Assembly (NCBI GenBank): GCA_017940545.1
Contig: JAGAYI010000005.1
Coordinates: forward strand, 1 to 64,000
Origin: Prevotella sp.
Lineage (GTDB): Bacteria > Bacteroidota > Bacteroidia > Bacteroidales > Bacteroidaceae
Length of the DNA stretch: 64,000 nt
Reading direction: 5' to 3'
This document shows positions 2,671-19,596 of this stretch, piece after piece; the stretch's first letter is position 1, and each line of letters begins with the position of its first letter. The position numbers were made by a program, and so were the translations under genes. Below the pieces are notes generated by a model. It saw only the letters and a program-made list of their open reading frames with translations. It was not told the DNA's origin and did no database searches.

Positions 2671-4014
2671 ATGAAGAGAATGTTGTTTACTGCTGCAATA
2701 GCCTGGAGCGTGCTGACAGCCATGGGGCAGGGCACCTACATTGTCAAGACGAAGAACGTGACACCCGAAAAAGCAGAGGTGACAGGCGCTGCCGACGAAA
2801 CGGCACAAGAGGGTCATCCGGACGAGGCACAAGACTTTGTGACCAAGAACTTCCGTTACCGCAGCATGTGCGACTGGCAGGCAGGCATGCGCTTCATGGT
2901 GATACCGGAAAAATATGACCTCATAGTCAACACCTTCCGTGACGCTACAGACCAAAAAGAAATTCCCAACGGCTCGTTACGCCACAAAGTCATGGTCTAT
3001 CAAGACCACACTGTAGGCGAGAACGGCCGTGCCCGTATGAACTTCATTTGTCAGGACGACAACCGTGCCTGCTATTTCGAGTTGCCCTTCGGAGCCTTCG
3101 AGGACTACTGCTACGGCAAGACAGGAGTGCCCACCCTGGCCTACCTGGAAGACGTTGACAAAGCCCGCGAGCTGCTGTTGGGTCAGACGCTCATCACCCG
3201 CCAGCCCGTCTTCTATATCGACACACAGTATGAAGGCGACGGCGTGGAAGAAGTGACCATACCTGAAAATACTGAAGTGCGCGTCACGCAGATAGGTGTC
3301 GGCACCCGCAAATATCCTGTCAAGATTATCGTCGAGGATGTCAGGACGGGTCGTGAGTTTTTTCAGAACGTAGTGATGAGCCGCACCAATAGCGGCATGC
3401 GCGACGAAGAGTTAGAGATGGACAAGAAGGTGCTTTTTCTCAACTCCTTCGAGGTGGTTACCGATGTAGAACAAGTCAGTTCCGACTATCAGAAGTACAT
3501 AGGCAGGACCATCTATTCTAAATATGCCATTGTCATGTTGTCAAAGGGCGACGGGAAGCTTCGCAACGTGAAGGTTCCCCGTCTCACGGAGTTTATCATC
3601 GACGATATCGTTCCCACCGGTCGGGGTGGCATGGTGCTCATGACCTTGACCGAGAGTGAGTCGCGCCGTGTCTATCAGAAAGAAGTGTCGTTTGTCAACG
3701 AGAGTATGCTTGACGACAATGAAAACTATTTTGGCTATCTGTTCGGTCTTGGCGAGGGCAAGCTGCGCAATTCCTCCCGTGAGACCCGTGCCATGATTCG
3801 CCAGGGTCGCGTCGGCCACGGCATGACGCAGGAGGAAGTAGAGCTGGCTATGGGCGAGCCTGATGCCAAGATGACCACCTCGTCAGGACTGGAGGAGTGG
3901 CACTATTTGCGCACCAAGATCGTGCTGATTATTCAGTTTGACAAGCATGGCAAAGTGTCGGGAATAGTAAAGTCTGGCGACAAGAAGCCTGTCACGAAAA
4001 AAAAGAAAAAATAG
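2671..4014 (+). CDS. Secreted protein with C-terminal BamE/SmpA-like domain
   Basis: 447 residues with a clear Sec signal peptide (MKRMLFTAAIAWSVLTAMGQG), so it is probably periplasmic or outer-membrane associated. Most of the length is beta-rich and I do not recognise it. The last ~75 residues read IRQGRVGHGMTQEEVELAMG, then EP, an aromatic EEWHY and IVLIIQFDKHGKVSGIV. This is the pattern of the SmpA/BamE fold (G-x-v-x-x-GM-t-x-x-eV-x-x-x-lG-x-P, then W-x-Y and a F-d-x-x-G-x-v strand). It ends in a lysine-rich tail. It is monocistronic, with a promoter box just upstream, and its last 23 bases overlap the convergent kinase remnant. A role in outer-membrane assembly would be inference only. 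Confidence 0.75.
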   Translation: MKRMLFTAAIAWSVLTAMGQGTYIVKTKNVTPEKAEVTGAADETAQEGHPDEAQDFVTKNFRYRSMCDWQAGMRFMVIPEKYDLIVNTFRDATDQKEIPNGSLRHKVMVYQDHTVGENGRARMNFICQDDNRACYFELPFGAFEDYCYGKTGVPTLAYLEDVDKARELLLGQTLITRQPVFYIDTQYEGDGVEEVTIPENTEVRVTQIGVGTRKYPVKIIVEDVRTGREFFQNVVMSRTNSGMRDEELEMDKKVLFLNSFEVVTDVEQVSSDYQKYIGRTIYSKYAIVMLSKGDGKLRNVKVPRLTEFIIDDIVPTGRGGMVLMTLTESESRRVYQKEVSFVNESMLDDNENYFGYLFGLGEGKLRNSSRETRAMIRQGRVGHGMTQEEVELAMGEPDAKMTTSSGLEEWHYLRTKIVLIIQFDKHGKVSGIVKSGDKKPVTKKKKK

Positions 4015-4285
4015 GGGAACCCTCAAAGTGGCTGTCAATCATGATGTTTTCAGGCTTGATGTCAAGATGGAAGATTCCGATGTTTATGCTGTCGCTGTTT
4101 CGCTCAGTAATGCCACGCATGTAGAATTCCTTTATGGCAACCTTCTCCTCAAAGAGGAGGGTGGTTGCCACATAGGTGTTGCCGAAACCTCCAGAGGAGA
4201 GATAACGGTCAATAATATATTTTTTCCCCTGAAGCATTGCTCCAACAGAAAGCATTGAATTGATATTTACATTTTGTATTGACAT
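3992..4285 (-). pseudogene. Remnant of a Ser/Thr protein kinase, internally deleted
   Basis: The 97-residue frame starts like a Bacteroidales Hanks-type kinase: YIIDRYLSSGGFGNTYVA with the glycine loop at residues 32-38, then KVAIKEFY with the ATP-binding Lys52. At residue 66/67 it jumps directly to IGIFHLDIKPENIMID, the catalytic loop with HxDxKxxN at 73-80. In intact kinases roughly 85-100 residues (helix C to helix E) separate these motifs. The rest of the C-lobe, including the DFG motif, is absent: after residue 84 the frame runs into the 3' end of the convergent gene and stops. It is therefore non-functional as a kinase. It sits 19 bases behind the last lipoprotein gene of the long minus-strand operon. 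Confidence 0.85.
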
Positions 4286-4304
4286 GTCTAAATATCTTTT
4301 TCAT

Positions 4305-5012
4305 TTAAATCCAAGCAAGGACAATCCTTTTAGCAGATAGAATGTCGAATAGACTTTTTGACGTCATATTAATTGTGAGTCTTACTGTTTCACTATAACC
4401 TGCCTGTAAACTTATTTTGTTATTATGGATTTTGTCGGTAGAAATGGTTCCTTTGTAAAGTTCGTTGCCTTTGCCATCAACAAACAGAGCATATAACGAA
4501 TGTCCTCTGTCCCAACCTCTGACGGAAGGGAGATCTGCCGTCAATTCCACTTGGGCTTCCATTTGAATAACGTCACCATATCTTCCAGAACCGACAATTA
4601 TCAGTGGATTGAGAAGTTTCATAGGAGCACCTTCCGCCATTTCTGTTGGTAGTTTCTCGCCCTTCATGTCCTCAACATATTTGCTGAACTTCTTGTATAT
4701 TTCTTCCTTTTTTTCTTCCATTTTTTTGTCCAAGGCCATTCCCTCATTGATAATCTCTTGGTATTCGGAGTCAGGCTTCTTCCTGTCCCCTTCATTAAGT
4801 CGCTCTCTGAGTTTCTCTCCTTGTTTTTCGTATTCTTCGTTGAAGAGCGTAAGGTCATCCATCAGATAGATCATTTCCTCACCTACACTACCAAACAGTC
4901 CATCAGCCGCAGCCTTTGCAGCTTCCTTTACTTCCGGCTTGCGGCTCTTGCCACACGATATGACCAGCAGCCCTGCCGCCAATACATATAATATAATGTG
5001 TAACTTTTTCAT
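4305..5012 (-). CDS. Lipoprotein of the tubulin-like operon
   Basis: 235 residues. The N-terminus MKKLHIILYVLAAGLLVISCG has a lipobox (VISC), so Cys20 is probably lipidated and the protein anchored in an envelope membrane. Residues about 50-115 are rich in Glu/Lys (YEKQGEKLRERLNEGDRKK, then KKMEEKKEEIYKKFSKYVED) and probably form a coiled coil. The C-terminal ~100 residues look like a beta-sandwich (IIVGSGRYGDVIQMEAQVEL, RGHSLYALFVDGKGNELYKG). I do not recognise a family. Its ATG overlaps the stop of the upstream gene by four bases, suggesting translational coupling. It is the last intact gene before the kinase remnant. Confidence 0.7.
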   Translation of the reverse strand: MKKLHIILYVLAAGLLVISCGKSRKPEVKEAAKAAADGLFGSVGEEMIYLMDDLTLFNEEYEKQGEKLRERLNEGDRKKPDSEYQEIINEGMALDKKMEEKKEEIYKKFSKYVEDMKGEKLPTEMAEGAPMKLLNPLIIVGSGRYGDVIQMEAQVELTADLPSVRGWDRGHSLYALFVDGKGNELYKGTISTDKIHNNKISLQAGYSETVRLTINMTSKSLFDILSAKRIVLAWI

Positions 5013-5533
5013 TCTCTATAAACATCAGCATTATTTTGGTCACTTATCGTTTTGTTATGGAAAGGTTGCTGCTTTGCCCATGCGTCGATCCCAATCATCG
5101 TAATCTGGTCGCCATTGCGAACGATTTGCATCTTGCCAGATTTCTTGTTCTCCGTGTTCTGGATTGAAAACTCATAGGTATTGACAGATACTGTACGTAC
5201 AAATTGAAGGTTATAATTACGCTCACGCATATATGCTTCATCGCTTATGTCAATATAACCATAGGCTTGCTGCTTAGGGACTCTCGGATTAACATCCTTC
5301 TTCTTTTCTGTTTGAAGGAACACATAACATTCACCCCATCCGCTGCCGTCACCATTGCCTAATGTTCCATACCAACTACCTTTGAGAGGGCAGATTGCAA
5401 CTTGACTATCCGTCGTATTCTTTCTCGGTGAAGTCGTCGTAGTCCGTTTGTTCGGTTTGCGATTTTGTGCCATTGCCGTCTGTGCTGTTCCAAACATCAG
5501 CAGAGCCATCAGTAATAAGGTTATTTTTTTCAT
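5009..5533 (-). CDS. Secreted protein, paralogous N-terminus to its upstream neighbour
   Basis: 174 residues with a signal peptide ending near TAMAQ. After cleavage comes a basic, threonine-rich stretch, NRKPNKRTTTTSPRKNTTDS, almost the same as in the gene upstream (5560-6201). The remainder (ICPLKGSWYGTLGNGDGSGW, then strands to MIGIDAW) looks like a small beta-barrel or lipocalin-like domain but I cannot name it. It is 26 bases behind its upstream neighbour and overlaps the downstream lipoprotein gene by four bases, so it is clearly in the operon. Confidence 0.65.
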   Translation of the reverse strand: MKKITLLLMALLMFGTAQTAMAQNRKPNKRTTTTSPRKNTTDSQVAICPLKGSWYGTLGNGDGSGWGECYVFLQTEKKKDVNPRVPKQQAYGYIDISDEAYMRERNYNLQFVRTVSVNTYEFSIQNTENKKSGKMQIVRNGDQITMIGIDAWAKQQPFHNKTISDQNNADVYRE

Positions 5534-5559
5534 ACGTATCTATTTTGGGTTATTAATTA

Positions 5560-6201
5560 TTAATAATAGGTAATGACGCGCGTCTCAACGTTTCCTTCCG
5601 AATCCTTGCGCTTTGTCCAGTTGCCTTGACTGTCACGTGACAGGATGGTATATGTGATGGTATCTTTCCATTTATTCCCTAATTCAACGCCATTCCTGTT
5701 GTTTTTTATGCATTCGCCATCGCTGTTATAGATGTAACGCTCTCTGATTTCGTGGCTTCCGCGTTCGTAATACTTTTCCGAAAGCAGTCCGTTAGCGTTA
5801 TATTTGAATTGGTAAAAGGCTCCATATCCAAACATGTCTTCTTTGATAATACGTCTTTGACTGTCACGAGTATATTCGCATGCAAAACCGTCATCGCTAT
5901 CTTCTTCTCTGTTTGCCAGAAGCTTCCCTCTTTTGTCAGTCATAAAACCGTCGCGGTTAAAATAGATTACATCATCTTGGTCTATTTTAAGCGTTTTCAC
6001 TGCCCCACGTAACTCATATCTTCCAAGTTCACCCTTGAAATTTACGTTAATCGTGACCTGTGTCGTTGTGGTCGGTTTCTTTCTCGGTGAAGTCGTCGTA
6101 GTCCGCTTGTTTGGCATGCGCTTCTGTGCCGTTGCCGTCTGTGCTGTCCCTATGAATAGGATAGCAGCCAAAGCAAAAAATAATACTTGTAACTTTTTCA
6201 T
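5560..6201 (-). CDS. Secreted protein with YD/RHS-like strand repeats
   Basis: 213 residues with a signal peptide (MKKLQVLFFALAAILFIGTA...) and the shared module KRMPNKRTTTTSPRKKPTTT directly after it. The rest has the alternating pattern seen in RHS/YD-repeat-like Bacteroidales proteins: YTRDSQRRIIKEDMFGYG, FKYNANGLLSEKYYERGS, YIYNSDGECIKNNRNG, then ILSRDSQGNWTKRKDSEGN. It therefore probably forms a short extracytoplasmic beta-sheet. Function is unknown. Spacing to its neighbours is 26 and 36 bases. The 29-base stretch 6077-6105 is identical to 5418-5446 in the next gene, so the signal/linker part has been duplicated or exchanged. Confidence 0.65.
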   Translation of the reverse strand: MKKLQVLFFALAAILFIGTAQTATAQKRMPNKRTTTTSPRKKPTTTTQVTINVNFKGELGRYELRGAVKTLKIDQDDVIYFNRDGFMTDKRGKLLANREEDSDDGFACEYTRDSQRRIIKEDMFGYGAFYQFKYNANGLLSEKYYERGSHEIRERYIYNSDGECIKNNRNGVELGNKWKDTITYTILSRDSQGNWTKRKDSEGNVETRVITYY

Positions 6202-6237
6202 TGTTGTGATTACTTTAAATATTCAAGCAATTTGTTA

Positions 6238-6957
6238 CTATTCTATATCCAAAGCCCCATCGTCCAAATCTCCTATGGAACTGTCTGCTTTTTGCTCATG
6301 AGACAATATTTCCGATAGCTCTTTACTGGTTTTTTCCATTGGATTAGCCTCGGTAAATTCCTCTAAACCTTCATAACTACTGACATCTATGTTTGGATCT
6401 GTAAGTTTTCCATTTTCATCAGTCAGTTTTTTCAAAGCACGTATGGCCTTACCTTGTTTACGTAATTTCTTCAAAATATCGACAACATCTGTTGTGCATC
6501 GTGCAGCAAGTTGAGGTCCCAGCTTCGTGTATTTTCCATATTTGAAAGCACTAAGCCCTAATTTAGGAAGAGCTGCAGTGTATAGAGGTGTTTGTAACCC
6601 TATGTTTGCGGCTTCTAAAGGGAGAAGCAGACACACACTGATAACGTCAAGCGTCTGTTTGAGAGCCTCGTTTTTTCCACGGAAATTGCCATTCTGATCA
6701 ACGATATGGTATGTTTCGCTTATGCTACCATCATTTTCAGTGACCTGTACCTTCTGCACTTTGTACCATAGAAGGTTCTCGTCAATAGCTTTGAGGTTTC
6801 TAATGATGGTATCACACGTAAGAAGATAATCGTCAATCTCCTTGACATTTGTCAGTTTGGGCATTTCTCCATTTTTCCAGTCAAGTTGTTTCTTTTGTGC
6901 GAAAACTGGCATCACAAGCATTGCCATTAGGCAAATAAAAACAAAATTCTTTTTCAT
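6238..6957 (-). CDS. Secreted protein of unknown function
   Basis: 239 residues with signal peptide MKKNFVFICLMAMLVMPVFA ending before QKK. The mature part is mostly alpha-helical: NVKEIDDYLLTCDTIIRNLK near the N-terminus, then a hydrophobic central region (LDVISVCLLLPLEAANIGLQ) that could be a buried helix or membrane-associated, and an acidic C-terminus. I recognise no family. It is packed between operon neighbours with gaps of 21 and 36 bases and shares their direction, which is the only hint of role. Confidence 0.6.
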   Translation of the reverse strand: MKKNFVFICLMAMLVMPVFAQKKQLDWKNGEMPKLTNVKEIDDYLLTCDTIIRNLKAIDENLLWYKVQKVQVTENDGSISETYHIVDQNGNFRGKNEALKQTLDVISVCLLLPLEAANIGLQTPLYTAALPKLGLSAFKYGKYTKLGPQLAARCTTDVVDILKKLRKQGKAIRALKKLTDENGKLTDPNIDVSSYEGLEEFTEANPMEKTSKELSEILSHEQKADSSIGDLDDGALDIE

Positions 6958-6978
6958 TTTTCGTTTGTTTTAAAGTTA

Positions 6979-8493
6979 TTAATTAGGTTCATAATCTCGG
7001 GTTATAGTCATGGAACTCTTCCCCTTATTTTTCAAGTTAATTTCCTTTATCGATTTTAGAGGACTATCGGGTAATGGTTTGAGCAAAAGCTTAACATATT
7101 GGCCCCTGTCAAATTGAATATGAAAAGTCCCGTCATTATTAACATCTCCAATATATGTCCCAGTTTTGTCTTTTGGGGAAGTACAGGCATAAATCTCACA
7201 ATGTTTCAAACTGTTTATTTGCATGATTCCCTCATAATAATTCTTAACTCTGATATTGCCTTCAATGACTACAGGGAAGGCAGAGAGAATTTGTTGGTAC
7301 TTTCTTTGTCTCGTCGCATAAAACTCATCGTGTGTAAGTTCATGTAACTGTTGCAAGTTGTACATTGCCAACTCCAAACATTCTTCAGCCAAGTGTCGTT
7401 GAACTTGTCCGCTCTCTTGCATTTTTCGCCATGTCGCAGCACAATTCTTGACGACTTGTAATCGGGATGCAAGACCATCCATCATATTTGCGCATTCTTG
7501 AGCAGTCGTAGCCTGCAGCGTAGTAATTCCTTCTGTTTGCCAAGCCTGTAGATATAGTTTCTTCGCTGTTCCATATTTTCGGTTGTCATATGCATTTTGA
7601 GCCTGATTCATATAGTCGTCATACGGATTTTTATACACATTCTTTACAATAGTCTGAGTAAGAGGAACAACGGCGACAACCATTTTTGAACGTGGTCCCA
7701 TTTGGGAAATATCAATGCTAAGGGAATTGGACTCTGGAGCATCTAAGTCTATCTGCTGAACTGAGGCAACAGAGACCTGCAATTCATTCACTTCTTGTTC
7801 TAACCTATCCAGTTCTTCCCATCTTGGATCGTCGCCATCAGCAGATTCCATCAAAATTTTATCTAAAGCCTCGTATGCTTTTGACTTCTCTTCGAATTGA
7901 TCTTTAAGCTCTTTTATTCGGACAACTGGTACTACTATTTTATATACATTGATACTACTGTCGTTTTCCTGTTTACATTCTGTGACTTCAAACGGGAAAA
8001 TGGTCGGAGTATAAATGTTCAACTTCTCAAAAGCAGTACTGATTTCAACAAGAGCTTCTGTTGCTGATGGATACATATCTCCAACCGATGGTTGGAAACT
8101 TAGACGAATAGGGTTGTTTACTGACTTTATCCTGTATCCTAAGAGAAGGCCTTCTCTCAGTCTCTTTTCAGAAAATTCCGCCTTTATGGTGCTGCCTCTT
8201 CTGGAAAAGATAAAATGTGCTTCCCGGCCATTGTCTATATTAATAATGACAGAATACTCATAGAGTCCGTCAATTTTGTCAGTGCCCATTTTCATCTCTC
8301 CCACTTGATTACCAGATGACACAATGACAACTAAGTCGTCGTATGGAGATAAGACGCGAATACCTCCATTCCCGCCTATGTCTGCGACGAGGTTAAGTTC
8401 TGCATCATAATCAGCAGTCATCTTGATGTCTTCCTGAGCACTGCATATAGTTGATAGAAAGGCGAAAAATCCAAGAAAAAGTAAAATCTTCAT
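6979..8493 (-). CDS. Large secreted protein with coiled coil and helical-repeat region
   Basis: 504 residues with a signal peptide ending near STICSAQ. The N-terminal ~190 residues are beta-rich (NLVADIGGNGGIRVLSPYDD). Residues about 190-250 are a charged helical region (IKELKDQFEEKSKAYEALDK, then RWEELDRLEQEVNELQ) likely to be a coiled coil. Residues about 290-410 resemble TPR-like helices (YMNQAQNAYDNRKYGTAKKL). The C-terminal ~100 residues return to beta strands with GTYIGDVNNDGTFHIQFDRG, like a small carboxypeptidase-regulatory or Ig-like domain. This architecture suggests an extracytoplasmic scaffold. No enzyme motif is visible. It lies mid-operon with gaps of 21 and 26 bases. Confidence 0.65.
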   Translation of the reverse strand: MKILLFLGFFAFLSTICSAQEDIKMTADYDAELNLVADIGGNGGIRVLSPYDDLVVIVSSGNQVGEMKMGTDKIDGLYEYSVIINIDNGREAHFIFSRRGSTIKAEFSEKRLREGLLLGYRIKSVNNPIRLSFQPSVGDMYPSATEALVEISTAFEKLNIYTPTIFPFEVTECKQENDSSINVYKIVVPVVRIKELKDQFEEKSKAYEALDKILMESADGDDPRWEELDRLEQEVNELQVSVASVQQIDLDAPESNSLSIDISQMGPRSKMVVAVVPLTQTIVKNVYKNPYDDYMNQAQNAYDNRKYGTAKKLYLQAWQTEGITTLQATTAQECANMMDGLASRLQVVKNCAATWRKMQESGQVQRHLAEECLELAMYNLQQLHELTHDEFYATRQRKYQQILSAFPVVIEGNIRVKNYYEGIMQINSLKHCEIYACTSPKDKTGTYIGDVNNDGTFHIQFDRGQYVKLLLKPLPDSPLKSIKEINLKNKGKSSMTITRDYEPN

Positions 8494-8519
8494 AGAATGA
8501 TACGTGTCTATTAGTTCAC

Positions 8520-9533
8520 TTACTTATTAAAATCTACTTCTGAAAATATCTCATTAATCTCTAACTTTCTTCCATTAATTTTCTCTGGCTGCCAAGTACG
8601 AACATGAATCATTGGGTCTCCATTTTCAGGAAATTCCCAGAGTAAAAAGACGTATCCTTCATCATGATAGCCTCTTGATGAATGCCACTCCTGACGCAAA
8701 CGTACTCCGTAATAGTTCCTGCCGTCTTTTCCCTTGCGATGAGTGATGAATTTGCTTTTTCCGCCATTCTCTGCCGGATTATCTATTAAAGAGAAATTCA
8801 CTTTAATCCACTTGTTTCTTTTAAAACATCTCAGAAGATTCTGTAGATATTGTGTTTTATTATACTTGTTATAGACCACCTTTTGGCGAAATCCCTCTTC
8901 GGCAGTTTTAACATTAACCACATTCCCGGTAATAATCAATGCGTCATCAGAAAACATCCTATTCAGGAAGTCAATGTCTTTTTCATTGTATGCTGTACGG
9001 AAACGTTCCACATACTTCCTGATGATTGCCTGCTCTTCCAGTTCAGCCACATTTCCTTCACTGCTTTCCAGACTTTCACTAACTTCTGGGTCTATTGCAA
9101 AACGGAAATCAGAAATTTTCCCATCAAGCGTGAACTCTACCACAGCGTCCTGCCGATTGTTGTTCAGAGGAGAATCATCAACAAGTATAATAGGGATGTG
9201 GTGAGCTTCCATCATCCGATTACGTTGGAATATCCATAGCCTGTCTTTAATGTCATTCCTTTCAGTTTTGAAATGGATGTTCTTCCAGAGGGTTGTAACC
9301 GCTTTTCTGGCAAAGTCTGTCATAGGAATGCCAACCGTATGTATCTCACGGCCTTCATTACATGCGCTGTTAATTTCTGTCAGCAGCTTACCAAGGTTGT
9401 ATTCAGTGTCAAAAACAACACTACTTTTTATGGTGCTATTATCGAACGAAAACCGGGCGGTGACATTCTGAGCCATGCTATGGTGTGTAGCACACAAGAT
9501 GCAAAATATTAAGACAATTTTTTTCATTATCAA
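8520..9533 (-). CDS. Secreted protein with an NTF2-like domain
   Basis: 337 residues; M1 and M3 are both possible starts, and both precede the signal peptide that ends near HHSMAQ. Residues about 170-215 read AIIRKYVERFRTAYNEKDID, then FLNRMFSDDALIITGNVV. This is the usual opening of NTF2/SnoaL-like domains, where two helices lead into the first strand. The C-terminal ~100 residues include RNYYGVRLRQEWHSSRGYHD, then EGYVFLLWEF, consistent with the rest of that cone-shaped fold. The N-terminal part is of unknown fold. The gene overlaps the stop of its upstream neighbour by four bases. Role within the operon is not deducible from sequence. Confidence 0.65.
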   Translation of the reverse strand: MIMKKIVLIFCILCATHHSMAQNVTARFSFDNSTIKSSVVFDTEYNLGKLLTEINSACNEGREIHTVGIPMTDFARKAVTTLWKNIHFKTERNDIKDRLWIFQRNRMMEAHHIPIILVDDSPLNNNRQDAVVEFTLDGKISDFRFAIDPEVSESLESSEGNVAELEEQAIIRKYVERFRTAYNEKDIDFLNRMFSDDALIITGNVVNVKTAEEGFRQKVVYNKYNKTQYLQNLLRCFKRNKWIKVNFSLIDNPAENGGKSKFITHRKGKDGRNYYGVRLRQEWHSSRGYHDEGYVFLLWEFPENGDPMIHVRTWQPEKINGRKLEINEIFSEVDFNK

Positions 9534-10489
9534 TTTGTTTTTTGAATGTTTTGTATGATTTTCTCCAATACGAACTGTACCAACTTATTACCATTATCTG
9601 CACCATCGTCATTTTCCTTCATAGGTGGTACTATCTGATGGATGAAACTGTCTGGGGCATCATAGATGGGAATATATGGAACCAAACGTGCTTCTGTCAA
9701 TTTGAAGTTGACAAGATGAACGTATCCCAAGTCCCTGTTAATGGAAAAGAAAACGTCCTCGTGATTATTTTTATAGTGTAGGAAACTGCCATCACATTCT
9801 TCTTCAAGAAGAGATACGATGTCCTGGCGGCAGAAGCGGACAGAGTCCTTGGCATATCCATACCGGTCAACAATCAGCAAGTAGTCATTCTCACAGTAGC
9901 GTCCCTGACTGATTCTTTTAATCTTGTTTGTCAGAATATCCTCCAGCTCCTTGTCATTTGCTCCTGTTATTAACTGACAATCTGCATTAAACTCTAGTGT
10001 CAGATAATTATCTCCACGCTGCCATTGTACTAAATACTTGTGACAGGTCCTGTTGTCAATCATGAGTACCTCGTCCTTGTTGTCAGAAACTATCATCATC
10101 TTTGGATTTCCTTTGCATATTACATTATCCAGTTTAAGACGTGATTCAATTTGCTGTTTTGAACCAGCCAAATCCAGTTCAAGCATGTAGCGTTCTATAA
10201 AATCATAGACAACAGAGGGGTTAGCCTGACGGATTCTCGACCCAAACAACGAATATCCTATATGGCAAATGGCCCCCTCGTTATCAGTCTTGATATGCAG
10301 AGGGTGATTGCGAAAATGGTAGGCACTGTCAATATCCAAAGGCTTAATGGCCTTTAAGCTATCACTAAGAACCACTCCCGTTGTTTTTGCCAACGATGCA
10401 AGTCGTTTGGTAACAAATTGTCCATGGATTGGCTGAATGCTGACAAAACACCCAACCAGTCCTATGAACAGTATGTTTTTACATTTCAT
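9530..10489 (-). CDS. Secreted protein of unknown function
   Basis: 319 residues with a signal peptide (MKCKNILFIGLVGCFVSIQP, cleavage probably near IHGQ). The Cys in the signal region is not a convincing lipobox. The mature chain is mixed alpha/beta with several Cys residues (ICKGNPKMMIVSDNKDEVLM, then RTCHKYLVQW). It ends with a short helix after an acidic linker (ENDDGADNGNKLVQFVLEK). No known family is recognised. It follows the zinc-ribbon gene by 23 bases and overlaps the next gene by four, so the two are probably translationally coupled. Confidence 0.6.
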   Translation of the reverse strand: MKCKNILFIGLVGCFVSIQPIHGQFVTKRLASLAKTTGVVLSDSLKAIKPLDIDSAYHFRNHPLHIKTDNEGAICHIGYSLFGSRIRQANPSVVYDFIERYMLELDLAGSKQQIESRLKLDNVICKGNPKMMIVSDNKDEVLMIDNRTCHKYLVQWQRGDNYLTLEFNADCQLITGANDKELEDILTNKIKRISQGRYCENDYLLIVDRYGYAKDSVRFCRQDIVSLLEEECDGSFLHYKNNHEDVFFSINRDLGYVHLVNFKLTEARLVPYIPIYDAPDSFIHQIVPPMKENDDGADNGNKLVQFVLEKIIQNIQKTN

Positions 10490-10512
10490 AGTGATATTCG
10501 TAATAATCAGTC

Positions 10513-11343
10513 CTACAGGTTGTTATTAGCGTCAATAAAGCTTATTTTATTCCCGTCAGCATCATAAAGAGTCCCGCTCTTCAACTTTCCGTTTTCAAAT
10601 CGGGCGTTTCTTATTTTATAGCCAGGTTCTGCATAAATGTCCCCTGTTATAAGTTTTCTGTGTGTAAACTCTACGTCGCCGAAACCATTAGGAATGTCAT
10701 TTCTAAGGTCACCTTTATATATCCCGTAACTTAAGCCTTTAGTTCCATTCTTAGAATTTTTTGTTTGTTCCTTTTTGGGCTTTTCCTGTACTTCCCCTTT
10801 TGGCTCATACGCTTTCACAGTTTCGCCTATTTTCACGGAATCTTCTTTTGCATTGACAGTGTATTTGCAGATGGCCTGAAGCGTATCAGCTCCAATAATG
10901 GCCTGTAAACGAACCTTTCCTTCACCAGCTTTGACGGCTTTAACTATACCGTTTGCCACTTCAAGCGTACCTGATTTACTTGCCTTCCAAAGAAGTGTCG
11001 TTTCTGTGCCTTTGGGTGTAATCGTAGCTACGAGGGTGTCAGCATCCCCAACTGACAGTTCTTTTTCATAATGGTTGAGGCTTAACATAACCTTCTCAGA
11101 TGCTTCAAAGGTATAGACGATTCCCCCAATGAGGCCAATGGCTAATAAGCCTGCCACAGTGGCAATGATCAGTTTTTTACCTCCTTTGCCTGATGACGCT
11201 GACTCGCTGTTTTTCCCTATCGGGTGTAGAGGTTTTCCACATTCCTCGCATACGAAGTTCGCCTTTTCTGCTTCTTGTATCTCTTTGTTGTCTGCAAGGT
11301 CACATTCTCCGAAGTTCTTGCATATTCCTTTTATTAATGCCAT
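10513..11343 (-). CDS. Zinc-ribbon, single-TM, Ig-like and MORN-type protein
   Basis: 276 residues with four modules. Cys8, Cys14, Cys32 and Cys35 (GICKNFGECDL ... FVCEECGKPLHP) form a likely N-terminal zinc ribbon. Residues about 56-80 (KLIIATVAGLLAIGLIGGIV) are one transmembrane helix. Residues about 85-165 look like a bacterial Ig-like group 2 domain (LSLNHYEKELSVGDADTLVA, ATITPKGTETTLLWKASKSG, then a conserved GEGKVRLQA). After a Lys/Pro linker, YGIYKGDLRNDIPNGFGDVE resembles a MORN repeat. The expected topology is zinc ribbon in the cytoplasm and Ig/MORN outside, which would let it link the cytosolic tubulin-like protein, 16 bases upstream, to envelope proteins encoded downstream. The linking role is inference. 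Confidence 0.75.
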   Translation of the reverse strand: MALIKGICKNFGECDLADNKEIQEAEKANFVCEECGKPLHPIGKNSESASSGKGGKKLIIATVAGLLAIGLIGGIVYTFEASEKVMLSLNHYEKELSVGDADTLVATITPKGTETTLLWKASKSGTLEVANGIVKAVKAGEGKVRLQAIIGADTLQAICKYTVNAKEDSVKIGETVKAYEPKGEVQEKPKKEQTKNSKNGTKGLSYGIYKGDLRNDIPNGFGDVEFTHRKLITGDIYAEPGYKIRNARFENGKLKSGTLYDADGNKISFIDANNNL

Positions 11344-11359
11344 ATTGATTGACTGATAA

Positions 11360-14300
11360 TTATAAATCTTGTAATTCTTCTTGTATGATTTCTACGGCTA
11401 AATTACGATATACCGTATAATTGGGGTTAAACTGATTATTCTCGCAGAGAGGACTGGGCAGGATCTTTGTTTGTACTACCTGTCCAAGCGCTTTGCGAAG
11501 CCCTGACTTTTGGTCATTGGTTCGACCTTGAATAGCGAGTTCTTTTTTTACTTGACTTTTCAGTAGCTCTGCTAATGCAAAGTCATGTCCGAGTGCTTCC
11601 AATGATTCTGCAAATCCCTTTCCAAGAGGTTTCCATTGGTCGCCAAACGTTTCGTCCGGAATACGGATGGCATCAAACCTGGCTCCTGTCGAAATGTCTT
11701 GCTGTTCACTGATGATGCCCAATGCGTAGGCAAGTATTAGCGGTTTCCGCATTTTCTGCTTTCTTATGATGGGGTCTTCCTCAAACAAGTCTGGTAAGTC
11801 TTCTTTGAAGCTCTCTGTTTGCAGAACCATGCGGTTAAGGGCGCATTTGCCGTTTTGTGGGGTAACAAGTGCATCGTATTTCTCCTTACAGACTTTTACG
11901 TTAGCTAAGAAACGAAGCGGGAATCCTGAGTTTGCCGAAATCACGACAATCTGATTGTCTTTGTAATTGACGGCGACATCGTCTTTCTTGTTAAAGCCCG
12001 GTACGTTCTTCTCAAAAGCCTGAATAAGCTTTTCTTTGAAGTCGTTTGTCTTTTCGTCTGTCTGAGGTAGAGAGAGTTGTACCATTTGCATCATGGCCCC
12101 CGTATTCCCAGGTATTACCATAGCTGTTTCCTTGGAGTCAAACTGGACGTAACTTTTTGAGGTGCTGGTCACAAGTTTTACAAATTTTTCCAGCTTCTCT
12201 TCAGTATTTAGTTCTTGCTTTAACTTCTCCATGATGTTAACACCCACCATTTTGTTCAGAGGATCAGTATCTGCAGCATCCTGCATGGCACGAACAGCAT
12301 TCTCTTGGCACACTTCAAGAATGATTCCTATTGCAGTCTCATAATCGGTTTTGTCATAGAGATTGGCAAAGGTGTGTTCGCCATCTTCTCCGAGGTTCTG
12401 AACCATTCGCAGGCGGATGGTAGCGGCATTCGAAGACATCTTTTCTCGATCGCTGACAAACTGGCGGCTGATTCTTCTTACCTGTTCTGCGTCATATTTT
12501 TTGATGTCAGTGTCATTTTGCTCCTCATTAGTCTGGCATTTGCTGTCAGCCTGTCGAATGACCTCCTCACTAATTGCATTCATTTCGTCTTTAAAGGCCA
12601 AAATGCCTTCCAACATATTGTTCAGTTCGAGGATAATGGTTTGGAGCAACTCTTTTGCGTATGCGTATGCCTCTGAACGGGTTGCTGTAGAGTAATAATC
12701 ACATTTCGCCGTCTTATACTTGCTCAGAACTTTGTTCGATGCATTGGTTATGGCATCTTTAAGCCATCCAATCTCGTTCCATTCTGCATTAATAGCTTGT
12801 ATCTCCTCGCTGATTTTAGCCAGTTCATCATCCATTCTTGAACGTTGTTGCTCGAAGGCTTTGATTCTGTCATTACAGTCGGCTATAATGAGACGGGTAT
12901 ATTTTTCTATTTCCAGAATGCTCTTTGTGTCAGCTGCGCCACTGGCCCATTCGTCGAACAGTTTAGCCTCGATATGGCGACGGATGGTACGGGCATATCC
13001 ACGTAATTCCTGACGTTGGATTTTAAAGAATTCTACTACTCCATGTTGGCGGAATTGGCTGTTGAAGAATTCGTCGCATCTGCGCCCAAACTCACCTAAC
13101 CAACTTTTTTTCTCAACATTGGTTTGTACGTCATCTGCATCTGCCTGAGTCCTTTTCTCCCATGTCTCTTCAAAAAGTCTCCAACGTTTTGTTGATGGGC
13201 CTTCAACAATTGGCTTGGCTAATGTCAGATAGTTATTACTTAGCATGAGCCCCTCGCGGTTTTTCTTATCTTTTATTTCGTCGGCAAAACCCATGCCTAC
13301 CTCATCTATTGTCCGTTCCCCATAGCCAATACCGTCTTGCCACATGTTAAATGTAAGTTGCCGGGCTGCTTGTAAAGCGTAAGTGTATGTCATGAACTCA
13401 CGAATCTCCGTCTCTGGGAATTCTATGCGGCTGATGCCAAACGAAAGGAATTTTCGGCTGTGAGCATTGTTCCCTGACTGGTCTTTCTCCGGGTCGGCTC
13501 CGTCATTCTCGCAACCAACGAGCCTGTTTAGTTGGCCTGCCGACCCAGACATAGCACTTGCTATTGTCGTCTGGAAAATAAAATCAGCTACCGCTGCTGG
13601 AAGCCCGTTGCCAAGGTCAAGCACTTTTCCTTGTTCATTTACATTTGTATATATATAGGCAGATTCAAATGCTTCTTGATTGCTCAGTAATCTGCGCACT
13701 TCACCTGTAATGATATCTTTCTCACCCTTTACGTCGGTCGGGTAATACTTACCGATGCTCAATGCATTTAACTCCAGAAGAGCCGCATAGCCATTAGCTT
13801 GATAGAAGCCTGCGTCATGTTTGGATGAAACCAATGTGCGTTCTGGAGTATAGATGAAAAGGCGGATTTTGAAAGCGTGAGTGTCTTCTTGATATGGGAA
13901 CCACGTCCTAATCTGAGCTATTGCGTCAATAATTGAGCCGGATCCAGTTCCGCCTGCGAGTCCTGCACAGATGTGGAACGTAACATCTTGGTCGTTGCTG
14001 TCATGTTGCAGCCGACCGACAGCTCCGCGAATAATAGCCTCAAAATTGTTAGGATTATTGGTGTCACAGATATTGTTGGCCATCAATGTACGTCCCAGAC
14101 GGCGCCTCTGTCCCCCTATGCCGGCAGAAATCAAAGCACCCATCTCTTGTTGCATCAGATGCAAGTCATTCGGGTTAAGGAATCCTTTTAGTCCAGGGTA
14201 TAAGTTGATATTCCCCAGCACGCTGGCACTAATACCATTGATGTTTACTTTTTGTGCAGTACCTAAATGTACACTTTTGCCCAAAACTTTCCAGCCTGTC

Positions 14301-14461
14301 CTGTCCTCTAAGTCGGCAGGAGAAGAATCTACATAGGCATAATCCAGGAAAATGCCGTTCCCAGGTTCATTGGAACGGAATTCCTCATAGACACGCTTTC
14401 GTAGTTCACGCAGTATTTTTCCTCCTGTACCTCCTAGTCCGATAAATAAATGATTTGCCAT
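11360..14461 (-). CDS. Large tubulin/FtsZ-superfamily GTPase
   Basis: 1033 residues. The N-terminal ~300 residues carry the tubulin-superfamily loops: GLGGTGGKILREL (8-20, T1-like), YVDSSPADLED (43-53, T2-like), AGIGGQRRRLGRTL (113-126, T3-like), CAGLAGGTGSGSIIDA (165-180, the tubulin signature GGTGSG), YTPE (204-207, T5-like) and NGYAALLELNAL (T6-like). This fits the Tubulin_2-type family of large FtsZ-like proteins, for which Makarova and Koonin proposed a role in membrane remodelling. Residues about 480-640 are charged and helical, probably a coiled coil; the last ~350 residues are a large unassigned domain. FtsZ and eukaryotic tubulins are only ~350-450 residues. GTP binding and polymerisation are expected, not shown. 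Downstream and upstream genes lie 16 and 23 bases away. Confidence 0.85.
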   Translation of the reverse strand: MANHLFIGLGGTGGKILRELRKRVYEEFRSNEPGNGIFLDYAYVDSSPADLEDRTGWKVLGKSVHLGTAQKVNINGISASVLGNINLYPGLKGFLNPNDLHLMQQEMGALISAGIGGQRRRLGRTLMANNICDTNNPNNFEAIIRGAVGRLQHDSNDQDVTFHICAGLAGGTGSGSIIDAIAQIRTWFPYQEDTHAFKIRLFIYTPERTLVSSKHDAGFYQANGYAALLELNALSIGKYYPTDVKGEKDIITGEVRRLLSNQEAFESAYIYTNVNEQGKVLDLGNGLPAAVADFIFQTTIASAMSGSAGQLNRLVGCENDGADPEKDQSGNNAHSRKFLSFGISRIEFPETEIREFMTYTYALQAARQLTFNMWQDGIGYGERTIDEVGMGFADEIKDKKNREGLMLSNNYLTLAKPIVEGPSTKRWRLFEETWEKRTQADADDVQTNVEKKSWLGEFGRRCDEFFNSQFRQHGVVEFFKIQRQELRGYARTIRRHIEAKLFDEWASGAADTKSILEIEKYTRLIIADCNDRIKAFEQQRSRMDDELAKISEEIQAINAEWNEIGWLKDAITNASNKVLSKYKTAKCDYYSTATRSEAYAYAKELLQTIILELNNMLEGILAFKDEMNAISEEVIRQADSKCQTNEEQNDTDIKKYDAEQVRRISRQFVSDREKMSSNAATIRLRMVQNLGEDGEHTFANLYDKTDYETAIGIILEVCQENAVRAMQDAADTDPLNKMVGVNIMEKLKQELNTEEKLEKFVKLVTSTSKSYVQFDSKETAMVIPGNTGAMMQMVQLSLPQTDEKTNDFKEKLIQAFEKNVPGFNKKDDVAVNYKDNQIVVISANSGFPLRFLANVKVCKEKYDALVTPQNGKCALNRMVLQTESFKEDLPDLFEEDPIIRKQKMRKPLILAYALGIISEQQDISTGARFDAIRIPDETFGDQWKPLGKGFAESLEALGHDFALAELLKSQVKKELAIQGRTNDQKSGLRKALGQVVQTKILPSPLCENNQFNPNYTVYRNLAVEIIQEELQDL

Positions 14462-14484
14462 AGTAATTTATTGTTTTAAGTTAT

Positions 14485-15057
14485 TTAGAAATCGTCATAA
14501 TGTTTCGTCCTCGCGCTACGTAATGGCTGTCTTCTTCCAGCTCGCGAACTTTCCATCGTCTTAATGATGAGAAATGCGCCAAGCACAACAAATGCAAGTA
14601 TGAAAAGACTATGCTTTAAAATATATTCATTCATAAAACTCTGCAACTTTTTATTCATGGCATGCGCAATGTCCCCAGGAGTATGACCGTAGAAATCCGC
14701 CCAGTTGACATAGTGCCCTACTAATGGAAGCTCTTTGTTCAGATTCTCTAAGATGGACTGACTGTCCTCTTGGGTAATAACATAATCATTAGGAAGTAAT
14801 GATACATAAGAGTTGATAAATCTTTCCACTTCATTACCGTATCCTTTGATGGTTACTGCTCCGCAAATAATTACAGAATGGAAAGACAAAATCAGAAATA
14901 GAATACCTGCTATCAGGAAACTTAACGTTGTAAAATGCTTGTTCTTATGCCAAGATTTGATAATAAACAACGTAAGAGTCATACCTGATAAGGTTATCAG
15001 AATACCTAAAAACAGGCTCCCTATGCTATGTGACAATATGTTGAAAAATGCGCTCAT
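14485..15057 (-). CDS. Small membrane protein of the tubulin-like operon
   Basis: 190 residues. Three hydrophobic helices are visible: about residues 12-33 (SLFLGILITLSGMTLTLFII), 43-68 (FLIAGILFLILSFHSVIICG) and 148-166 (LFILAFVVLGAFLIIK). Between helices two and three lies a ~75-residue soluble loop (YGNEVERFINSYVSLLPNDY, then a helical stretch). The C-terminal tail is strongly basic (SSRAGRRQPLRSARTKHYDD) and so probably cytosolic. No family is recognised. It sits directly upstream of the tubulin-like gene (23 bases), which makes it a candidate membrane partner; this is inferred from position alone. Confidence 0.65.
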   Translation of the reverse strand: MSAFFNILSHSIGSLFLGILITLSGMTLTLFIIKSWHKNKHFTTLSFLIAGILFLILSFHSVIICGAVTIKGYGNEVERFINSYVSLLPNDYVITQEDSQSILENLNKELPLVGHYVNWADFYGHTPGDIAHAMNKKLQSFMNEYILKHSLFILAFVVLGAFLIIKTMESSRAGRRQPLRSARTKHYDDF

Positions 15058-15070
15058 GCCTTAATACGGT

Positions 15071-16201
15071 TTAATCAAATTCGTCTTCTGATTCTTCTTT
15101 CTTGTGCAAATGCACTTTTAGGTTTTTGCCATCGTTGCTTTGGGCTTTTCCTATTATCTCTTCGGTTGTACCGCTTAGTGTAAACGTCCATTCCTGTTGT
15201 TTTACTTTGCCAAGGAATCTTACGTCGCAACTGATGTCTGATACAGGCTCTCCCTTGAGCTTCATTGTTGCTCCATACTTGATGTTTTTATATACAGCAC
15301 TTAACTCTCCATTCTCTTCTTTTTTCGTTATGATAAACTCTATGGGGAATCCAGCCATGTCTCCTTTGTATTCTGTAGTACCATTAGGCAATAATCCTAA
15401 TAATCCGTCGCAAGGAGTGCTGCCGCCGCCACCTTGATATGTTGTAGGAGTCGTTGGATTGTTGTCAAATTCGTCAGAATCATCACCACCATTATTTGGA
15501 TCCTCAGGAATTTTATTTTCGTCAGGAGTGCCATTAGTATTGCCGGAGGTTGGCTTACTATCATCTGATGGTTTTCGGGGGGTGTTAATGGTTGGCTGCT
15601 CTTCCTTTGGAGGACGCGGATTATGGGGCTTTTCAATTTTGTAGCCACTTACGGCAAAGATTGCGGTAAAGAATATCCCAATCAATACAATCAAAATGGA
15701 ATGGTATCTGAATTGAAACCAACTGGTAAACTTCCATGAAACGACAATAATACATATAATTATTAGTGAAACAATATAGGGGAAAACTGCTCCGATTAAA
15801 TGAACGATGCACATCAGAGGATAATAAATAATAGCCGCGACAATAACTGGAACTAAAAAGAATCTTCCGAAGAAGGGAAATATAACATGTCCCAACATCC
15901 ATTCCATAATATCCCAGTTACGTTTTACTTCGACACGCCCATCTTCGTAGGTCGTCTTCTCGTAAGTGTCAAAGGAAAAAATACTAAACTTGCTCCAATT
16001 GGCAAACATGACTATTAGCCCGATTATGTATAGTGGCCACATCAACACGGAGTCGAACATGTTCCAATTAGCAGAAAAAGAAATATCAGAATGAAAAAGT
16101 ATCTGATAAATTAGCCATAAACCGCTTATGGTTATTGCTGTCGCAACTATATAGCCTGCTGTTTTGTAATTCTTGGTAGAGAACTCCGGTAATCTTTTCA
16201 T
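15071..16201 (-). CDS. Polytopic membrane protein with Pro-rich linker and C-terminal beta domain
   Basis: 376 residues and the first gene of the operon. Five or six hydrophobic helices fill the first ~190 residues (AGYIVATAITISGLWLIYQI, LMWPLYIIGLIVMF, FFLVPVIVAAIIYYPLMCIV, VSLIIICIIVV, ILIVLIGIFFTAIFAVSG). Residues about 195-265 are a disordered Pro/Asn/Asp/Thr-rich linker. The last ~105 residues (PNGTTEYKGDMAGFPIEFII, then alternating strands and LSGTTEEIIGKA) look like a small beta domain. I recognise no enzyme motif. Together with the 190-residue protein it gives the operon a membrane module. A 13-base gap to the next gene supports co-transcription. Confidence 0.65.
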   Translation of the reverse strand: MKRLPEFSTKNYKTAGYIVATAITISGLWLIYQILFHSDISFSANWNMFDSVLMWPLYIIGLIVMFANWSKFSIFSFDTYEKTTYEDGRVEVKRNWDIMEWMLGHVIFPFFGRFFLVPVIVAAIIYYPLMCIVHLIGAVFPYIVSLIIICIIVVSWKFTSWFQFRYHSILIVLIGIFFTAIFAVSGYKIEKPHNPRPPKEEQPTINTPRKPSDDSKPTSGNTNGTPDENKIPEDPNNGGDDSDEFDNNPTTPTTYQGGGGSTPCDGLLGLLPNGTTEYKGDMAGFPIEFIITKKEENGELSAVYKNIKYGATMKLKGEPVSDISCDVRFLGKVKQQEWTFTLSGTTEEIIGKAQSNDGKNLKVHLHKKEESEDEFD

Positions 16202-16268
16202 GTTACGTTAGTGGTTGTTAAACATAATCCTGCACTCTCCTACAGGACGCTATTATCTACGGTTCTCT

Positions 16269-16515
16269 ACTATACAAAAAAAGAGCGTGAGAGTCAGTCT
16301 TGCTGCTCATTCCACTCTTCGAAGCTCTGGCATTGCTTTTGTAGTCGAAACGAGCAACGCCGAAGCCCACGCCTGTATGAAAATATAATAATACTTTATT
16401 ATATATCACACCCATGGACGTCATTGTTGCTTTGTTGTTTGACTACAAGTTTTGGAACTGCCAGATTCCGAAGAGTCAAGAACAAAGCGTCAAGTAACGC
16501 CTTTTCAAATATAGT
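16269..16515. repeat. Imperfect ~247-bp palindrome upstream of the tubulin-like operon
   Basis: The ends are ACTATA (16269) and TATAGT (16510). Along the arms, blocks pair across the centre: ACTCTTCG near 16313 with its complement near 16469, TCTGGCA near 16327 with TGCCAGA near 16459, and TTGTAGTC near 16339 with GACTACAA near 16441. The centre is an exact AT-rich hairpin, ATATAATAA (16383-16391) and TTATTATAT (16396-16404), at the midpoint of the outer ends. The arms are diverged, not exact. It could be a decayed MITE-like element or a structured leader RNA. ORFs across it have no supporting features. Confidence 0.6.
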
Positions 16516-16685
16516 GGCCCCCTTTCCCTTTTTAGATGATCTTAGAATCCTCTAAACTCCCCTCCTTAGTTAGCTCAACCTTTAGATTTTGCATACTTTG
16601 GCCAGGCGTAGGCTGTCATTCCTCTAATGCTTTTCCAGACACGTCTGGCTGTAACAAAGAAGAATATGACATAAAGGGTCAAATG

Positions 16686-16693
16686 CAAAGGTA
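16686..16693 (-). promoter_or_regulatory. -7 box TACCTTTG (minus strand), candidate operon promoter
   Basis: Minus-strand TACCTTTG is a perfect TAnnTTTG box. If it drives the tubulin-like operon, the leader would be about 480 bases and would contain the palindrome. A second box, TATATTTG, is at 16506-16513 at the edge of the palindrome and would give a ~300-base leader. I cannot decide between them. A 14-base dyad, CCAGAC-AC-GTCTGG, lies at 16635-16648. Confidence 0.45.
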
Positions 16694-16850
16694 GTAAATA
16701 AATTTGGAAGTAAAAAGAAAAAAAATGTTTTTTTGATGAAATAGTGGTGTTTTTCGGATGAAATTGGCTTTTGGAATTATAAAATACAATGATTTTTGAT
16801 ATTTTTTTGGATCATCCATTTTATTAGCATCGGCTTTTGTCGGCGGTGGC

Positions 16851-16985
16851 ATCAACTTTAACGTGAGATGGTATCGACTTTTGTTGAAGATAATGTATAG
16901 TTTTGTGCGCCGCGGTATCAAGAAATGCCGACGAAGTTGGTAAGTTGGCGAACAAAAGTTGATAAGATGGCGGGCAAAAGTTCAC
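16851..16985. repeat. Cluster of short ATCAACTTTTG-like motifs
   Basis: This otherwise gene-free stretch (16694-17087) has ATCAACTTTA at 16851, ATCGACTTTTG at 16873, and on the opposite strand CAAAAGTTGAT at 16953 and CAAAAGTTCAC at 16975. Two GCCGCGG/CACCGCGG words also occur. The spacing is irregular, so a regulator-binding cluster between the two divergent transcription units is possible but unproven. Nothing else is seen here. Confidence 0.35.
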
Positions 16986-17087
16986 ACCGCGGGGCATAAA
17001 AGTGTGGAGAATGAACTGCGAAAGCAAAAAAAAAGATGTTTTTGCAAAAAATATTCACAAAAACAATGGGGATATTAAAATAATGCT

Positions 17088-17124
17088 TATATTTGCAGCA
17101 TCATAATCAAATAAGAAAGGAGGT
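17088..17124 (+). promoter_or_regulatory. -7 box TATATTTG and strong Shine-Dalgarno
   Basis: TATATTTG (17088-17095) matches TAnnTTTG. It is followed by AAAGGAGGT at 17116-17124, six bases before the ATG at 17131. Such an extended Shine-Dalgarno is unusual among the genes of this window, most of which have AT-rich, SD-poor leaders. It fixes the start codon of the next gene. Confidence 0.7.
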
Positions 17125-17130
17125 AATAAG

Positions 17131-17946: not shown

Positions 17947-17997
17947 AACGGGGTTTTTCCACCCCGTTTCCACCAGAATCTTCCATCTTTTCCACCT

Positions 17998-18042
17998 ATT
18001 CCACAATATTCACGATTTGAGGATATTGTGGAATTTTTATTT
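17998..18042 (+). terminator. Rho-independent terminator
   Basis: ATTCCACAATAT (17998-18009) pairs perfectly with ATATTGTGGAAT (18023-18034) around a 13-base loop and is followed by TTTTATTTTG. It separates the 271-residue gene from the next unit. Confidence 0.8.
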
Positions 18043-18054
18043 TGTTATTGTCTT

Positions 18055-18062
18055 TAACTTTG
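18055..18062 (+). promoter_or_regulatory. -7 box TAACTTTG
   Basis: Perfect TAnnTTTG box 40 bases before the ATG at 18103, just after the terminator. No well-spaced -33 TTTG is seen. Confidence 0.65.
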
Positions 18063-18102
18063 CATCAGAAAACGACGGAAAGTCAAAAAAACTGATGTAA
18101 AA

Positions 18103-18573: not shown

Positions 18574-18606
18574 TAAAAACTTTACTCCATTTAAATGTTA
18601 TTAGTT

Positions 18607-19062: not shown

Positions 19063-19107
19063 TATGTTGAAATCATTGTCTGACTAAACAAAAGAAAGGG
19101 TTTTATT

Positions 19108-19533: not shown

Positions 19534-19540
19534 TAATTCA

Positions 19541-19573
19541 GAAAGGCGGCCACGATAGAAGTGACCGCCTTTC
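19541..19573. terminator. Hairpin between convergent genes
   Basis: GAAAGGCGG-c-CAC (19541-19553) pairs with GTG-a-CCGCCTTTC (19561-19573) with one mismatch. On the plus strand TTATGATTAT follows. It lies between the second HU-HIG gene and recA, so it probably serves both. Confidence 0.6.
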
Positions 19574-19596
19574 TTATGATTATCAGATGCTTCGTT

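Follow-up and report, generated by a model that had tools for sequence, protein, structure and literature searches.

The FtsZl1 family was defined in 2010 by Makarova and Koonin, who described vWA, kinase, GTPase and OmpA genes among its neighbours and proposed a role in membrane remodelling (PMC2875224). In the text of that paper a vWA partner, often accompanied by a kinase, a P-loop GTPase or OmpA, is a frequent but not universal feature. Tubulin_2 proteins are elsewhere mentioned as scattered FtsZ-like sequences (PMC9871819). The way in which an FtsZ-like protein of the cytoplasm could work with periplasmic and outer-membrane partners has been a question ever since the family was defined. 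Here we analyze an operon coding for such a protein, TUB (1033 aa), in a stretch of 64,000 nucleotides from Prevotella sp. (assembly GCA_017940545.1, contig JAGAYI010000005.1, positions 1 to 64,000; hereafter the window). TUB and the zinc ribbon of the membrane protein encoded immediately after it (ZR) follow one phylogeny, and the C-terminal half of ZR and the exported proteins of the operon follow another.

The operon has 12 open reading frames (ORFs) on the minus strand, from 16201 down to 3992, in the order A1, A2, TUB, ZR, S319, S337, S504, S239, S213, S174, S235, and KIN, with spacings of 13, 23, 16, 23, −4, 26, 21, 36, 26, −4, and 19 bp. A first-pass annotation had reported twelve same-strand genes with gaps of 13–36 bases or 4-bp overlaps, and all the ORFs are indeed at the minus-strand coordinates it gave. 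Its grouping of the twelve genes as one functional unit is rejected on conservation counts across loci. These counts come from a six-frame profile recount of the named loci L106–L185, which are the best 80 of the 330 TUB relatives confirmed in a scan of species genomes; a locus is evaluable for a gene only if its contig reaches far enough. A first survey covered 50 loci, window included, with a greedy gene caller that missed genes.

The zinc ribbon of ZR (10513..11343) lies downstream of TUB (11360..14461) in 78/78 evaluable loci, from Bacteroidota to betaproteobacteria. An independent motif test, which asks for the cysteine pattern and a transmembrane (TM) segment in an ORF that begins close to the end of TUB, recovers ZR at 62 of 78 loci, against 0 of 262 control genes, and several loci failing the strict pattern visibly have ZR. 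TUB and ZR are an invariant pair, because betaproteobacterial and plasmid operons keep both, with other genes following. All five betaproteobacterial genome loci have TUB, ZR, and a binding protein with a TAXI/NMT1-type motif (Pfam NMT1_3 in the two tested), and a Paraburkholderia plasmid has TUB, ZR, a lipoprotein, and a TM2 protein, with no binding protein. The other frequent members are A2 (14485..15057; 54/71 evaluable loci), S319 (9530..10489; 68/76), X240, a secreted protein encoded between S319 and S337 in relatives (66/74), and S337 (8520..9533; 65/73). The eight loci without S319 are the five betaproteobacteria, the Chitinophagales, Siphonobacter, and L152. S504 (6979..8493) is present in 36/69 loci and a PEGA-family protein in 26/69, with either one in 58/69; in many relatives PEGA-family proteins occupy the S504 position, one of them with a weak beta-barrel match. 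S239 (6238..6957; 36/68) mostly accompanies S504. Among the 55 named loci holding all six genes, the order A2-TUB-ZR-S319-X240-S337 is kept in 54. Recurrence of the two membrane proteins and the zinc-ribbon protein beside the tubulin had been set beforehand as a check, and it is found for A2 and ZR; A1 (15071..16201) is rare, with its family in 4/50 loci of the first survey (window included) and 6/80 named loci. At E 1e-5, none of the other 49 first-survey loci has a relative of S213, S174, S235, or KIN. Hence, eight genes of the operon are also seen at other loci, A1 only rarely.

The rates of evolution separate within the ZR gene. DNA similarity to loci L106 and L108 spans approximately 11222–14501, i.e., TUB and 120 bp of ZR, and otherwise consists of short matches inside A1. 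Nonsynonymous divergence (dN) of TUB from L106, L108, and L107 (genomes G155, G105, and G280) is 0.066, 0.081, and 0.078, with synonymous sites saturated, and dN of RecA in the same genomes is 0.088, 0.142, and 0.170. The slow segment continues into the zinc-ribbon coding part of ZR (11224..11343), the first 44 ZR codons having dN of 0.087 (L106), 0.092 (L108), 0.114 (L107), 0.083 (L113), and 0.234 (L109). For A1, A2, whole ZR, S319, S337, and S504, dN relative to L106 and L108 ranges from 0.33 to 0.88. Among pairs of named loci with TUB identity of 75–85%, median identity is 63% for the zinc ribbon, 40% for A2, 33% for the ZR tail, 31% for S319, 33% for X240, 47% for S337, 25% for S504, and 35% for S239. 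TUB and the zinc ribbon thus evolve slowly, and the membrane and exported parts fast.

Trees were limited to loci with complete gene sets: 49 loci, 50 with the window, 34 for the two halves of ZR, and 23 once redundancy is removed. The window is outside the last two sets, as it lacks X240. With 49 loci, the S337, S319, and X240 trees share 27–30 of 46 splits with one another and 13–14 with the TUB tree; label shuffles give at most three. With 50 loci, the TUB and the exported data each reject the topology of the other (approximately unbiased (AU) test, p 0.002 and ~1e-95). Because this test rejects foreign topologies generally, the argument for two histories rests on effect size. In the 34-locus comparison (57 ribbon columns, 180 tail columns, branch lengths re-optimized), the log-likelihood (lnL) loss of the zinc ribbon is 46 on the TUB topology, 230 on that of A2, 333–352 on those of S337, S319, and X240, and 675–706 on three random trees. 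The ZR tail loses 101 on the S319 topology, 103 on S337, 140 on X240, 427 on A2, 587 on TUB, and 1471–1718 on random trees. The comparison was repeated on the 23 loci (TUB identity <85%, another alignment method, LG+F+G4 model). There the ribbon fits TUB best (loss 0), losing 183 on the exported topology and 208 and 238 on random trees, and the tail fits the exported topology best (0), losing 377 on TUB and 424 and 419 on random trees. In that set S319, X240, and S337 fit the TUB topology about as badly as they fit random trees, the exported topology being partly their own. Along ZR, the lnL preference is +290 for TUB in columns 1–45, near zero in columns 46–180, which include the TM segment, and −426 in columns 181–271. 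A2 fits the TUB topology better than the exported ones (lnL loss of 336 versus 719–844). The simplest reading of these comparisons is that an inner module (TUB and the ribbon) and an outer module (the ZR tail and the exported proteins) have recombined repeatedly, with the switch inside ZR.

The operon is part of a block (4015..19590) delimited by composition and by the gene order of relatives, with a GC content of 0.417 versus 0.496 in the remaining window. The 447-aa gene at 2671–4014 and recA adjoin in four of the six relative stretches examined. Two of these have dnaK, the 447-aa gene, and recA directly consecutive, and in the two others dnaK is beyond the end of the stretch; of the remaining stretches, one has two other small genes between the 447-aa gene and recA, and one is short, with the 447-aa gene outside it. 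Two of the six, L193 and L194, belong to G155 and G105, genomes in which the tubulin is 90% (G155) and 88% (G105) identical to TUB and is encoded on another contig. The operon was therefore inserted at the window site. At the edge of the block, KIN (3992..4285, 97 aa) runs into the 3′ end of the opposite-strand 447-aa gene. It matches kinase models only as separate N-lobe and catalytic-loop pieces and so reads as a Ser/Thr kinase fragment, the remnant that the first-pass annotation had seen there. A different, longer kinase-like frame is found elsewhere in the genome (47% over 60 residues).

Of 398 genomes of the genus, 41 have a TUB relative (E 1e-10), as do 9 of 393 at the level of the order; both counts include the genome of the window. 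The best 80 loci are from Bacteroidales, one Chitinophagales, one Siphonobacter, and five betaproteobacteria. One of them, L174, is titled "archaeon," and this label is probably a binning error, because its TUB is nearly identical to that of the Bacteroidales locus L175. Family labels are weakly clustered on the trees of 49 loci, with 14 changes on the TUB tree and 15 on the exported tree versus shuffled means of 17.4 and 17.5, and genus labels likewise, which fits horizontal movement of the operon. Four plasmid records match TUB, one of them over 88% (a 1.09-Mb Paraburkholderia plasmid, 28% identity) and three partially. A phage origin was considered and rejected: the one match among phage records is weak and without annotation (23%, covering 36% of the query, E 5e-7), and a scan of viral contigs gave 167 pattern matches, none of which was confirmed as a TUB relative.

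By its sequence TUB is a tubulin-superfamily protein of the Tubulin_2/FtsZl1 family, as the first-pass annotation had proposed: residues 5–366 match PF13809 (174.9 bits, cut-off 27, E 3.8e-51). The match to PF00091, the classic tubulin model, is below cut-off (14.8 bits, cut-off 33). TUB is not the divisome FtsZ, which the same genome encodes separately (G000:C32). It carries GLGGTGG near the N-terminus (T1, motif GGxGxG) and, at residues 170–175, the GGTGSG that had been pointed out earlier (T4, motif GGTG(S/T)G); G10–G14 and G170–G175 are invariant among 52 aligned sequences. The AlphaFold2 model built with 52 homologues is confident and covers all 1033 residues (predicted local confidence, pLDDT, 90.2; predicted template-modelling score, pTM, 0.75). 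In this model strands and helices alternate up to about residue 370, and the predicted long helices 515–562 and 574–639 would form an extended coiled coil after the FtsZ-like domain. Further helices are predicted after them, with a mixed alpha/beta region at 790–950 (strands 791–799, 837–847, 917–921, 928–934, and 942–947). A sequence search of solved structures gave nothing convincing for TUB (the best was a tubulin beta chain, E 0.3). In four loci TUB is preceded, immediately or at a short distance, by another TUB-like gene of lesser length (L109:7664-9988, L111:7664-9988, L153:7805-9964, and L159:6764-9349). The T4 motif is missing in the first three and altered to GGVGSG in L159; the shorter protein is possibly a pseudo-GTPase partner, recalling paired tubulins. 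Other Tubulin_2 subtypes of the genus, met in passing (L012, L013, L014, L019, and others), are accompanied by other proteins: in L012 by a weak vWA match alongside TUB and a papain-family protein of 1160 aa, in L014 by RmuC, and in L019 by a transglutaminase-fold protein. In L076, L078, L082, L085, L087, and L090, TUB has a C-terminal extension, which we take to be a GYF_2-like domain, followed by a proline-rich tail.

The topology of the other proteins was read from hydrophobicity and charge. ZR (276 aa) appears bitopic: its N-terminus, some 45 residues long, has four cysteines and is followed by a flexible stretch containing basic residues, one TM segment, and a variable C-terminal part; because of the charge, the ribbon is placed in the cytoplasm. 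The zinc ribbon and TM segment announced in the first-pass annotation are therefore both present. Its Ig-like domain is a weak match below cut-off (Big_2, E 0.5), and its MORN repeat appears only in a relative, at 22.4 versus the 22.5 bits needed. A2 (190 aa) has three hydrophobic segments and a basic C-terminal tail ending in YDDF, an ending that it shares, in this or similar form, with the close clade of the window. A1 (376 aa), an accessory protein, has six hydrophobic segments and a C-terminal domain. Pfam was run on ten of the twelve proteins (all but S235 and KIN), and NCBIfam and PADLOC on ten (all but S213 and S174). Matches above the weak range came from TUB and the kinase fragment alone. 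S319 is a secreted protein of an orphan family, with no Pfam family above cut-off and no Protein Data Bank match by sequence. S337, also secreted, has a C-terminal NTF2-like domain (weak DUF4440, SnoaL, and Cds6_C matches), and S504 and S239 are secreted. X240 gave no convincing solved structure by sequence search; its assignment as an LPP20-type protein, indicated by 1 of 35 members at E 0.034, was dropped as unsupported.

The gene set, the invariant adaptor, the rate split, the two phylogenies, and the insertion are observations, and with them in hand we consider it reasonably probable that the operon encodes a horizontally moving, two-module, trans-envelope machine. The inner module would consist of the putative cytosolic GTPase TUB and the cytosolic zinc ribbon of ZR, aided by A2. 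The outer module would consist of the periplasmic part of ZR with S319, X240, and S337, followed by S504 and S239 or PEGA-type proteins. By analogy with FtsZ and its anchors, GTP-dependent assemblies of TUB would be held at the inner membrane by the ribbon, and ZR would relay their position, or a change of conformation, to the complex of exported proteins. Selection would keep TUB matched to the ribbon and the ZR tail matched to the exported proteins, and recombination inside the ZR gene would let one conserved engine take different outer modules. The physical contacts, the polymerization, and the direction of action are what we infer here. The layout across cytoplasm, inner membrane, and periplasm had already been suggested from the gene order, and the phylogenies and the rate split at the adaptor back it. 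A wider formulation, which we put forward more tentatively and on balance rather doubt, is a modular cytoskeletal system of engine and tool, in which the tubulin–zinc-ribbon engine drives interchangeable extracytoplasmic tools, reassorted inside the adaptor gene, with the inner membrane as the genetic joint.

Several results weigh against the two-module machine. Mixed histories are no proof of contact, and linkage alone accounts for part of the agreement between ribbon and TUB, as they lie side by side. The AU test rejects foreign topologies within the modules too (TUB for the ribbon, nominal p 0.024; S337 and S319 for X240, p 0.043 and 0.027). The exact position of the switch is not fixed, because the middle columns of ZR, with the TM segment, favor neither topology. 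A2 fits the inner module loosely and has much history of its own, its window copy being nearest to that of L116 (55%) and not to those of the TUB relatives. The window copy may be degenerating: X240 has no profile match in the 64 kb (nor was it found in the remaining genome, where, at 70.5% completeness, an empty result shows nothing), and S319 aligns without a middle stretch present in most relatives. When the profile of TUB is compared with that of 25 FtsZ sequences taken from relatives, the alignment is confined to the T4 region (E 0.0013, probability 18.6%) and, weakly, T1, and T6-H7 could not be found in FtsZl1 by the 2010 authors (PMC2875224). The operon also departs from FtsZl1 operons, with no vWA, P-loop GTPase, or OmpA partner in the Pfam scan, and the kinase present as a fragment only.

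This last point tells as well against the membrane-remodelling machine proposed in 2010, in which FtsZl1 filaments would bend or vesiculate the inner membrane with the exported genes as accessories. It was proposed from gene context (PMC2875224), and membrane proteins do adjoin TUB here; but the conserved partners are mostly exported, the Pfam scan of ten window proteins detected none of the vWA, kinase, P-loop GTPase, and OmpA components, and, in the published review of that paper, Reviewer 1 raised the objection that proteins of the cytoplasm will not enter a complex with periplasmic ones (PMC2875224). We regard it as unlikely. The same reviewer's alternative, transport or signalling across the inner membrane with the exported part binding a ligand and TUB responding, seems to us equally doubtful. 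It draws on the binding protein that follows ZR in the five betaproteobacterial loci, on the gene of this kind that the reviewer named in Polaromonas (PMC2875224), and on the layout of ZR, which resembles that of a bitopic signal transducer. However, unrelated orphan families fill that place in Bacteroidales, the Paraburkholderia plasmid lacks the binding protein, and no permease is seen in the conserved set. The authors themselves set the point on Polaromonas aside because the binding protein is too narrowly distributed (PMC2875224).

A conflict or immune system, in which an invader would trigger TUB assembly and the variable exported proteins would sense or act, is a little less unlikely than either. 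Its location in islands, its patchy presence in the genus (41/398), the exchange between taxa, and the fast exported parts speak for it, as does the occurrence of tubulin homologues in predicted GTPase-centred conflict systems (PMC7159879). On the other hand, kinase fragment aside, PADLOC gave only weak matches (E 0.003–0.009) on ten proteins, and Pfam, run on ten window proteins, detects no GTPase, HSP70, or vWA partner and no recognizable effector domain. Finally, the rate split could come simply from a cytoskeletal protein under purifying selection next to ordinary, fast-evolving lipoproteins, and the conflict between phylogenies from long branches and alignment error in fast proteins, since the exported families are only ~20–30% identical at moderate distance. 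This we find very improbable. S337, S319, X240, and the ZR tail are concordant with one another (27–30 of 46 splits among the exported families) and disagree with TUB nearly as random trees do once redundancy is removed, and two ordinary envelope proteins of the window are 50–66% identical in relatives (each is in two of three relative genomes, one only in part). The function may be that of an envelope machine, of a conflict system, or of transport or signalling; within the two-module machine, we incline to a role at the surface or in the envelope, with diversification driven by conflict or by the niche.

S213, S174, and S235 (4305..6201, minus strand), three secreted or lipoprotein ORFs of which the first two are alike at the N-terminus, are probably passengers. 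No RNA families were found near the operon, and no Bacteroides-type promoter pattern, in the form we assume for it, is found on the minus strand upstream of it, though the window has 8 such patterns versus 2.08 expected; a sigma-70-type scan barely exceeds shuffles (41 versus 31.5). At 17131–19533, the plus strand of the inserted block has a 271-aa ORF, a 156-aa ORF, and two ORFs that seem to resemble HU-type DNA-binding proteins. Elsewhere in the window, an 897-aa secreted protein (59922–62615, minus strand) with many DVSKWDVSNVTNM-type repeats is by appearance a surface-repeat protein.

In comparison with known systems, the first-pass annotation's remark that the operon matches no system it knew has to be withdrawn, as exported partners of FtsZl1 were already described in 2010 (PMC2875224). 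The operons of that paper, as described in its text, share with the present one the protein family, the size of about 1000 aa, the T1 and T4 motifs, and exported and membrane neighbours; its tree has Bacteroides and Polaromonas proteins, and its review places a TRAP-type binding protein beside the Polaromonas gene, as found here. The invariant adaptor, the rate split, and the reassortment are not known to be described in that paper, and the word zinc does not occur in its main text. The GTPase-centred conflict systems of Kaur et al. 2020 likewise bring together in a single neighbourhood, as presented there, zinc ribbons, TM components, and a tubulin homologue that has a coiled coil (PMC7159879). 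There, however, the zinc ribbon is on the GTPase and the partners are HSP70 or vWA (PMC7159879), whereas here the ten scanned window proteins show no GTPase, HSP70, vWA, or effector match and the partners are mostly exported. FtsZ with its anchors FtsA, ZipA, and SepF serves as a working analogy only, in which a dedicated anchor keeps a member of the tubulin family at the inner membrane; it differs in that TUB is not FtsZ and the genome has its own FtsZ. In open-licence literature searched by title and start of abstract, subscription papers lying outside, nothing was found on the ZR adaptor or on module exchange. If the proposed machine is real, a bacterial tubulin-family protein acts across the envelope and swaps its outer parts by module exchange, and this transferable gut-bacterial cluster points to a way for a tubulin inside the cell to affect its outer layers. 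The family is known and the architecture partly anticipated, and the invariant adaptor, the rate split, and the two-module reassortment are new so far as could be searched; to the objection raised by the reviewer in 2010, an invariant bitopic adaptor with two histories offers a concrete and testable answer.

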